Shown piece by piece: positions 33,143 to 34,857 of a stretch of 37,423 nucleotides of DNA. Below the pieces are notes generated by a model. That model was not told where the DNA came from and did not search any database. It was given only the letters and a program-made list of their open reading frames with translations. Location of the stretch: the NCBI GenBank assembly GCA_029057785.1, contig JAIDZC010000008.1:1-37423 (forward strand), read 5' to 3'. The stretch is from Anaeroplasmataceae bacterium. Its GTDB lineage: Bacteria > Bacillota_I > Bacilli_A > Acholeplasmatales > Anaeroplasmataceae. Each line of letters opens with the position of its first letter. The stretch's first letter is position 1. Position numbers and translations under genes: made by a program.

Positions 33143-33403
33143 TTACTCCCTATACTTGCTTTTCATTTTAAAAAAGAATAATTCACTTTTAATAGCTGGT
33201 ATATCTTTTAAGGATTCATTTATTTTGTTAGCAACTTGAAGTTTGATCAATAATTCTTCATAAACTTGAACACTCATCATAATCATATCACTATATCCAT
33301 TTTTGGTAATGATTATAGGCTGATTACTCTCTTTACAAAGTCTTGAAATATTTGCAGTATTTTTCAATTCATTAATTGGCAATACTTTTGGTAAAACTTT
33401 CAT
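33143..33403 (-). CDS. Phd/YefM-family antitoxin, no toxin partner seen
   Basis: An 86-aa protein with the N-terminal fold of Phd/YefM antitoxins: LPINELKNTANISRLC, then QPIIITKNGYSDMIMMSV and YEELLIKLQ. The toxin-neutralising C-terminal tail is present but basic. AAGGAGG lies before the ATG at 33403. Downstream there are only 58 nt before a terminator, and no RelE/YoeB/Doc toxin lies on either side, so it is an orphan or its toxin has been lost. The nearest other gene is the 115-aa protein 366 nt upstream. Confidence 0.82.
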   Translation of the reverse strand: MKVLPKVLPINELKNTANISRLCKESNQPIIITKNGYSDMIMMSVQVYEELLIKLQVANKINESLKDIPAIKSELFFFKMKSKYRE

Positions 33404-33660
33404 ACTTTTCCTCCTTATTACATTACTCCAATGATATAATAAATCCTGCTGACAGAATAATTTAGAAGTTTATTTTCTTTCCGGTTCTTCAATATCTTAG
33501 GTCTCTCTAAAGCTTACGATATTCTTTTGGAGTATTCTCATAATCGATTTCATCCATTTAGACTTGCTTTACATTTTTGAATCTACTTTCTGAAGTCTTC
33601 TCTATAACGTTAACATTTCTTTCTTACTTTCAATCCTTATTTTGAAATCTCATTTCATCT
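33404..33660. other. gene-free stretch with possible decayed minus-strand ORF
   Basis: No intact gene is seen. On the minus strand an ATG at 33557 opens 16 codons (MDEIDYENTPKEYRKL) to a TAG at 33507. The same frame goes on, past that stop and a later TGA, with coding-like residues (RDLRY, RTGKK). This looks like a decayed gene rather than chance, but no family is assigned. Confidence 0.3.
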
Positions 33661-33665
33661 TCTAT

Positions 33666-33694
33666 TTGACAATCTCTACATAATATGCTAGAAT
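33666..33694 (+). promoter_or_regulatory. strong promoter for a plus-strand small RNA
   Basis: TTGACA (33666-33671) and TAGAAT (33689-33694) are separated by exactly 17 bp, with TGC extending the -10. No ORF with an RBS follows, only the structured segment at 33701-33770. Confidence 0.8.
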
Positions 33695-33700
33695 AATCAC

Positions 33701-33770
33701 ATAAGAATTGTTCCTTGTTTAACAAGGCCGTCCGTCAGCAATATGCTGTTTCTGGCACAATTCTTTTTTT
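33701..33770 (+). ncRNA. structured small RNA, about 70 nt, unrecognised
   Basis: Just after a near-consensus promoter, the plus strand carries a closing stem AAGAATTGT (33703-33711)/ACAATTCTT (33757-33765) that runs into seven T (33764-33770). Two hairpins sit inside it: CCTTGT-TTA-ACAAGG (33713-33727) and CAGCA-ATA-TGCTG (33736-33748). This three-way-junction-like RNA with a terminator tail is well explained as an independent sRNA. It converges with the 115-aa gene, whose stop overlaps the T-run. I do not recognise the family. Confidence 0.65.
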
Positions 33771-34116
33771 ATTTGATTTTCCTTCGGGCATAGTCTTCTA
33801 TCAGTTTATAGTCGCTTGGACTAAACGTCCAATTCAATGGTGCAGAGAATGCACTTTTTTTATTTGCCCTCATTCTAAAAATAACGTATGATTTTTCATT
33901 TTTTGTTTTTGGGTGTGGATTTGGATTCTTTTTTAATTGTATTGTTTTAGCAATGGGGTTAGTTGTCATAGGTAAAAATAAATAAGATTTCCCATCTTCT
34001 CCTATAATAATAGTTGGATGATTTGAAATGTTATTTTTTCTAATATGTATAGCAAGTCTTTTTGCTTTGCTACTGTTTGGTCTTACAAGATCCAACTGTA
34101 TATCACTTAATACCAT
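33769..34116 (-). CDS. small basic protein of unknown function behind a structured leader RNA
   Basis: A 115-aa basic protein, pI clearly high. The middle is beta-like (HPTIIIGEDGKSYLFLPMT), then comes a KKNPNPHPKTKNEKSYVIF segment, and the end is SPSDYKLIEDYARRKIK. The order of short strands recalls MazF/PemK- or ToxN-like RNases, but no catalytic signature can be named, so function is left open. AAAGGATG precedes ATG 34116. A minus-strand RNA with its own promoter and terminator lies directly upstream (34154-34299). A convergent small RNA ends on its stop codon. Confidence 0.65.
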   Translation of the reverse strand: MVLSDIQLDLVRPNSSKAKRLAIHIRKNNISNHPTIIIGEDGKSYLFLPMTTNPIAKTIQLKKNPNPHPKTKNEKSYVIFRMRANKKSAFSAPLNWTFSPSDYKLIEDYARRKIK

Positions 34117-34153
34117 TTACTTTTCATCCTTTCCATAGTTCTAAATTATAAAT

Positions 34154-34299
34154 TAAAAAGCGTGATGAAATTTAGATAGTACATAAGTACTAACCAGTTT
34201 CAATCACGCTATCCAGCAAGGAAAACCACTCTACTACATTCAGTTGTCTTAGCCATCTATAAAAAGTAGAGTTCTTACTTATAGACTTCTTCTAGCTAC
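34154..34299 (-). ncRNA. structured leader/antitoxin-like RNA with pseudoknot and terminator
   Basis: From the promoter at 34306-34334, about 146 nt run to a terminator: AGCGTGAT (34159-34166)/ATCACGCT (34203-34210) with an inner TAGTAC/GTACTA hairpin, then TTTTT on the minus strand. In the 5' part, TAGCTA (34293-34298) pairs with TGGCTA (34250-34255) and TCTATAA with TTATAGA (34256-34262/34279-34285). The loop sequence ACTCTACT (34265-34272) is perfectly complementary to AGTAGAGT (34228-34235), which gives an H-type pseudoknot. The layout promoter-RNA-terminator-ORF is that of type III toxin-antitoxin loci or of a riboswitch/attenuator. Neither is proven. Confidence 0.6.
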
Positions 34300-34305
34300 A
34301 TTTTT

Positions 34306-34334
34306 ATTATATCATAAATTCCTTCTTGATTCAA
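34306..34334 (-). promoter_or_regulatory. promoter of the leader RNA / 115-aa gene
   Basis: TTGAAT (34329-34334) and TATAAT (34306-34311) are 17 bp apart on the minus strand, with TGA extending the -10. Confidence 0.8.
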
Positions 34335-34383
34335 TTTAAAGTTTAAAAATAGCCAACATAAATTCGATACTTTTTCTTCTGAC

Positions 34384-34857
34384 TTATCGGATAATATCTA
34401 TAAATTCTACTCTTATAACCTTAGCTAAATCTAAAGGATTCATCTTAACCTGATATCCTATTTTTCCTGCAGAAAAAATAATATGAGATAAGCTTTTAGC
34501 AGAAATATGTAGAGTTGTAGTAAATTGCTTTTTCATTCCAATTGGACTACATCCACCACGAATATAGCCAGTAATTCCTAATAAATCCTTTACTGGAATT
34601 AACTCCACAGATTTTTCTTTAACTGCTTTTGCAGCTTTTTTTAAATCTAATTCTGCTTGAACTGGAATTACAAAAACATAGTAATGCTTACTGTGTCCTA
34701 TGGCAACTAAAGTCTTAAATACTTCTTCTTTATTCTGACCAAGTAGTTCTGCAACCTTTACTCCATCCACACATATTCCTTCCTCGTGCGGATATTCAAA
34801 AGCTTCATATGAAATTTTCTTCTGATCTAAGATACGCATTACATTTGTTTTTTCCAT
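34384..34857 (-). CDS. ybaK: Cys-tRNA(Pro) deacylase YbaK
   Basis: A 157-aa trans-editing protein of the YbaK/ProX family, which hydrolyses Cys-tRNA made by mistake by ProRS. The family lysine is in KEEVFKTLVAIG, and the glycine-rich GYIRGGCSPIGMKK is the YbaK signature near the active site. ATG 34857 overlaps the stop of the upstream RimI gene (TAATG) and has GGAG 6-7 nt upstream; an ATG six codons earlier lacks an RBS. It is the last gene of the tsaE-tsaB-rimI unit. Confidence 0.92.
   Translation of the reverse strand: MEKTNVMRILDQKKISYEAFEYPHEEGICVDGVKVAELLGQNKEEVFKTLVAIGHSKHYYVFVIPVQAELDLKKAAKAVKEKSVELIPVKDLLGITGYIRGGCSPIGMKKQFTTTLHISAKSLSHIIFSAGKIGYQVKMNPLDLAKVIRVEFIDIIR

Follow-up and report, generated by a model that had tools for sequence, protein, structure and literature searches.

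A pseudoknotted leader RNA and its possible role in the control of toxin- and defence-like genes

To our knowledge, where toxin or defence genes are known to be controlled by RNA, every protein is served by an RNA of its own. In the processive antitermination RNAs Put and EAR, a cis-acting structure precedes terminators and a competing helix is not needed. In Clostridioides difficile, the ncRNA of the RCd22-AbiF system acts both in cis and in trans (PMC12373285). The antitoxin RNA of type III toxin-antitoxin systems is defined by tandem repeats (PMC5086642), and the toxins of type I systems are mostly small hydrophobic peptides (PMC4885055). Here, we describe a locus of an Anaeroplasmataceae bacterium in which the gene of a small basic protein is preceded by a pseudoknotted leader RNA (RNA A) and met at its 3′ end by a compact convergent RNA (RNA B). 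As RNA A precedes many different genes, it appears to be an off-switch shared by a group of risky genes and not an antitoxin reserved for a single small protein. Positions refer to the window, which is the whole 37,423-nt stretch of DNA analyzed.

Architecture and conservation of the leader RNA

RNA A and the gene behind it lie on the minus strand and comprise the following elements:

34306..34334, minus strand: promoter of RNA A, TTGAAT-17-TATAAT with TG ahead of the -10 box, score 10/12
34155..34299, minus strand: RNA A, a pseudoknotted leader RNA of about 145 nt, supported by its copies, covariation and a z-score of -3.1
34298-34294 with 34254-34250, minus strand: helix P1, 3 pairs with compensatory changes
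34286-34274 with 34266-34255, minus strand: helix P2, 4 pairs with compensatory changes
34267..34271, minus strand: pseudoknot loop strand CUCUA, invariant in near copies, CUCUGC in the distant copy L068
34229..34233, minus strand: pseudoknot distal strand UAGAG, compensated by GCAGAG in L068
34211..34222, minus strand: hairpin P4, 2 pairs with compensatory changes
34155..34210, minus strand: intrinsic terminator with a covarying stem tip, then TTTTT, stem -22 kcal/mol
33769..34116, minus strand: 115-aa small basic protein of an unnamed family, motif HP...T(H/T)...L.KNPNP...SY

The initial annotation had described a promoter with 17-bp spacing, a structured RNA of about 146 nt, a pseudoknot between two octamers and a Rho-independent terminator ahead of the 115-aa ORF, and this anatomy was reproduced in every part. 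The promoter ranks second among 12 promoter-like sites of the region, and its score is weak taken alone because 6.4 such sites are expected by chance; a promoter at an equal offset, with the -35 box starting near -35, precedes most of the RNA A copies tested, with promoter scores of up to 11/12. The minimum free energy of RNA A is -40.8 kcal/mol, and only 1 of 200 shuffled sequences was equally stable. The octamers ACTCTACT in the loop and AGTAGAGT downstream are complementary. The terminator, which ends 38 nt ahead of the ORF, was not flagged by a simple terminator scan, since its long apical part probably exceeds the loop limit of the scan. RNA A matches no covariance model of Rfam, including that of the abiF RNA (RF03085), and a loose threshold returned chance matches only. 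A leader peptide within RNA A was considered and rejected by eye, as the ATG frame of the window copy lacks a ribosome site and is disrupted elsewhere by an extra T.

The first 101 nt of RNA A were used to build a covariance model, which was run on 160 genomes of the order. About 30 copies were found in eight of the 11 genomes of the genus, with up to about 10 copies per genome (six in the genome of the window, G000, seven in G047 and nine in G042), and none in the remaining 149 genomes. When 55 genomes of the family were searched at the DNA level, RNA A was detected in five, all belonging to the genus of the window, with 11 pieces in G042. Viral searches with RNA A and RNA B gave no matches. 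Candidate RNAs of human microbiomes have been published in large number (PMC8040213), and RNA A may already be among them without an assigned function.

The copies covary as expected for a conserved structure. RNAalifold on 23 copies predicted 37 pairs, 11 of which have changes on both sides. When the named structure including the pseudoknot was evaluated on the same 23 copies, 95.8% of the cells were paired, in comparison with 36-55% in controls with slid partners, and nine pairs showed double-sided changes. The pseudoknot core CUCUA/UAGAG is 98% kept across these copies, yet invariant; support for it comes from L068, where CUCUGC/GCAGAG replaces CUCUAC/GUAGAG as a compensatory change. Inspection by eye indicated that the distant copies L067 and L069 also retain the fold.

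Downstream genes and a probable shared attenuator

The genes behind RNA A are mutually unrelated and encode RhuM (PDC-S23), a DUF1016/YhcG nuclease (PDC-S02), Fic (SoFic), a pair of an HTH protein and an S_4TM membrane protein (PF18159), RecQ, and three types of small basic proteins (115, 154 and 165 aa). By family name, the recognized genes are mostly single-gene defence candidates of PADLOC, so that the downstream genes appear mostly defence- or toxin-like, and RecQ may be an ordinary helicase. An AAA_14 gene (PDC-S01) lies about 1 kb from the copy L049, beyond a decayed ORF. In a survey of gap lengths that left out the udk and RecQ copies, the start codon was located 18-38 nt beyond the terminator in seven copies with no promoter in between; therefore, downstream expression in these cases must come by readthrough. 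The RhuM and YhcG genes begin 66-243 nt downstream of RNA A and could use other promoters or starts.

Because seven genes are reachable solely by readthrough, the best reading of RNA A is that of a cis-acting leader, or attenuator, common to defence- or toxin-like genes of one genus, which we consider on balance probable. At the level of sequence, the basis of this reading is the conserved structure, its recurrence before unrelated genes, and starts placed right after the terminator. A new riboswitch or attenuator had been the fall-back guess of the initial annotation, and it agrees well with a conserved structured domain that stands ahead of several genes and is not in Rfam. In the proposed mechanism, a sigma-70-type promoter would start transcription of the pseudoknotted RNA, which would halt at the terminator by default and leave the downstream gene nearly silent. 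The pseudoknotted domain, or a common protein or RNA partner, would sense some condition, upon which polymerase would pass and the gene would be expressed. RNA A would thereby gate genes that are dangerous when expressed, and the 115-aa ORF would be one client, also bearing its own convergent RNA B. Regulated readthrough, a trigger for it, and an anti-phage action of the client genes are inferred.

Comparison of individual copies points in a similar direction. In the clearest cases, an aptamer resembles those at other loci of its own genome more closely than it resembles its orthologue: the aptamer of the window (ybaK locus) is 100% identical to the RhuM-locus copy of the same genome and 91% identical to the G047 orthologue, and the terminators of the two same-genome copies are only 73% alike. 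G047 and G046 show a similar tendency. Homogenization of the aptamer and not of the terminator fits one common partner reading all RNA A copies; the uniform aptamer may also be the product of gene conversion or of recent duplication without any such partner. A mutually exclusive antiterminator was sought in 23 copies and none was found; in 23/23 copies, the longest duplex between the upstream part and the 5′ arm of the terminator was weaker than the shuffled mean. Controlled readthrough, if any, is therefore likelier to be mediated by a protein or by the polymerase than by a simple helix switch.

The 115-aa protein family and its convergent RNA

The 115-aa protein is rich in Lys and Arg and has no match in Pfam, NCBIfam, PHROG, PADLOC or the PDB. 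Relatives were detected in 27 of the 395 genomes of its class and are frequently multi-copy, with H33, P34 and T51 as the invariant residues of the family; viral, phage and plasmid searches with these relatives gave no matches. An AlphaFold2 prediction from four close sequences reached a pLDDT of 49, too low to assign a fold. RNA A is not specific to this ORF: in G046 and G048 the ORF lacks RNA A, and RNA A stands before other genes. The initial annotation had overlooked that RNA A is multi-copy and that another RNA is encoded on the plus strand, and its interpretation is partly supported. The elements on the plus strand are as follows:

33666..33694, plus strand: promoter of RNA B, TTGACA-17-TAGAAT with TG ahead of the -10 box, 11/12, kept in L003, L004 and L005
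33701..33774, plus strand: RNA B, a compact structured RNA of about 74 nt, convergent with the ORF, with its terminator at the stop codon of the ORF

RNA B was found in all four genomes of the genus with the 115-aa ORF, and the seven genomes that lack the ORF also lack RNA B. The surroundings of RNA B differ among genomes, and four sequences contain three compensated pairs. The constant partner of the ORF is RNA B, not RNA A. By a strict test with thresholds that were chosen after examples had been seen, a convergent compact RNA was detected at the end of 13 of 45 family members, which represent about seven independent groups with some close relatives among them, vs 1/136 control ORFs (3/138 other ORFs passed, two of which were duplicate entries of family loci). 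Flanking convergent compact RNAs are also present at relatives in other bacterial families. For the 165-aa gene, all six copies with a covered 3′ end have a convergent RNA whose promoter scores 11/12 and lies 56-72 nt beyond the stop codon, and the closing stems of these RNAs covary (GAGU/ACUC, GAAUUU/AAAUUC, GGAUUU/AAAUCC, GGCUU/AAGUC, GAGC/GCUC and GGGC/GCCC).

In all likelihood, RNA B serves as an antagonist dedicated to the 115-aa protein or to its mRNA. That the ORF and RNA B form a toxin-antitoxin-like pair, which would be compatible with RNA A as an attenuator above it, is plausible and in our estimation slightly short of probable. The constant company of RNA B in differing surroundings, the enrichment among relatives and the covarying stems of the six 165-aa copies argue for such a pair, whereas 32 of the 45 relatives fail the strict test, whose post hoc thresholds and partly redundant positives also weaken the case. 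RNA B may act by binding the protein, as in type III systems except for the convergent arrangement, or by silencing the mRNA as an antisense RNA, as the type I-like layout suggests. The ORF with RNA B is a better toxin-antitoxin candidate than the ORF with RNA A, and an RNA of this kind beside a widespread unnamed protein family could represent a novel type of RNA antitoxin.

Several further arrangements were observed around this family. The 165-aa small basic genes also occur in tandem (L034:1774-2883 and L037:1688-2802), each with its own convergent RNA, and these RNAs contain the motif CGACATACGG (CGATATACGG in one). At L002:1851-1940, L006 and L008 (+), the 104-aa paralogues of the ORF are accompanied by another type of RNA, which is encoded opposite to the gene and diverges from it; this RNA has a strong promoter and the conserved 3′ hairpin CCTGGTCATGTGCGG...CCAGG. 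Related, strongly structured RNAs of 166-191 nt are convergent to the family ORF at L121 and L107, which come from a different bacterial family within the class. At 33143-33403 (minus strand) of the window, an 86-aa ORF is weakly similar to Phd/YefM antitoxins (27.4 bits, below the cut-off), with no recognizable toxin adjoining.

As a tentative proposal, and a rather doubtful one when taken as a whole, a single pseudoknotted RNA may be the master gate of an anti-phage or toxin regulon that also includes a nested module of a small protein and a convergent mini-RNA. If so, unrelated defence genes in one genus would have taken up the same attenuator and would be released together by a common signal, and the nested module would be a new RNA-protein pair, the small basic protein being restrained by a convergent mini-RNA that ends at its stop codon. 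With one RNA class before RhuM, YhcG, Fic, S_4TM and small toxin-like genes, it would follow that defence genes can share a signal-reading RNA, and the common signal would be findable with one reporter.

Alternative roles of RNA A

RNA A might instead be mainly trans-acting, an abundant 145-nt antitoxin or sRNA whose readthrough gives little protein, comparable to RCd22/AbiF and ToxI/ToxN. The order of promoter, RNA, terminator and gene is that of RCd22-abiF, which is active in cis and in trans (PMC12373285), and the lack of an antiterminator is in accordance with this explanation. In addition, intact copies at L041:1566-1713 and L069:1501-1640 are located near AbrB-HSP20 genes and are not directly followed by any gene. 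These orphan copies leave room for a trans role, and they count against the attenuator because a purely cis-acting element needs no gene-less copies. However, the same RNA class precedes RhuM, YhcG, Fic, RecQ and small basic proteins, so that it can hardly be a specific ligand of each product, and the 115-aa ORF exists without it in two genomes. We therefore regard a mainly trans-acting RNA A as rather unlikely.

The spread of RNA A could also be that of a repeat carried along with gene cassettes by transposition or recombination, with no regulatory role. RNA A is multi-copy and dispersed within a single uncultured genus, which is represented by draft assemblies; several copies sit at contig ends, and the accompanying genes are patchy. 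Such a passive repeat is nevertheless improbable in view of the compensatory changes in the helices and the terminator. The udk-HTH locus tracks descent and is the oldest locus of RNA A, and there the copies behind udk in six genomes are divergent but intact. Moreover, the promoters vary by downstream gene family while the RNA stays conserved.

The initial annotation had recognized the gene order of a type III toxin-antitoxin system, and the order itself stands, together with the pseudoknot and a terminator separating RNA and gene. Membership in this type does not follow, because no tandem repeat is present within 33600-34400, the protein has no profile similarity to ToxN, RNA A is common to unrelated genes, and the ORF occurs elsewhere without it. 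Thus, we consider a true type III pair of RNA A and the 115-aa protein very improbable. A search with PF13958 did not match the 115-aa protein, and kinship with the ToxN family, whose fold is MazF-like, had been raised by the motif G..Y....T.(S) and was rejected at the level of sequence profiles when hhalign of 44 relatives against eight ToxN proteins gave a probability of 0.1-0.2%.

A CRISPR-repeat-like element of the CreTA type, by means of which toxins would be repressed by a Cas effector, is scarcely credible: the core CTCTACTnnnTATAGAT visually resembles the end of a Cas12a repeat, but neither Cas1 nor Cas12a was found in the RNA A-rich genomes G000, G042, G043, G046 and G047 with models that detected Cas1 in nine control genomes and Cas12a in none. 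Separately, 33627-33650 (plus strand) of the window is a lone stretch like the CRISPR repeat family DR45, sub-threshold and in a genome without Cas1.

Comparison with known systems

In the type I systems par of pAD1, SprF/SprG and TxpA/RatA (PMC4885055), a short convergent RNA ends at the 3′ end of the gene, and RNA B likewise converges with and overlaps the 3′ end of the putative toxin transcript. Unlike these systems, the proteins considered here have 100-165 aa and are basic, the ORF product being a Lys/Arg-rich protein of 115 aa and not a small hydrophobic peptide, and the fold of RNA B is conserved. The type III systems ToxIN, CptIN and TenpIN (PMC5086642) share with the RNA A locus a promoter, a pseudoknotted RNA, a terminator and a small protein gene on one strand, but RNA A is without tandem repeats and is not protein-specific, and the protein is without homology to the ToxN family. 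Riboswitches and protein-responsive attenuators resemble RNA A in having one conserved domain with locus-specific terminators before several genes; in contrast, no switching helix was detected in RNA A, and its clients are defence- or toxin-like instead of metabolic. Put and EAR may resemble RNA A in that a cis RNA structure stands before terminators with no competing helix, but RNA A has no sequence match in Rfam. The arrangement of RNA A is the one seen in RCd22-AbiF, where a SigA promoter, an ncRNA of about 130 nt, a terminator and a toxin or defence gene follow one another with no intervening promoter and a readthrough transcript is made (PMC12373285). The abiF RNA is confined to a single protein family and contains two abiF motifs (RF03085), whereas RNA A has no counterpart among the Rfam models and stands ahead of six or more unrelated gene families. 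By analogy of layout, RCd22-AbiF is the clearest precedent for RNA A.
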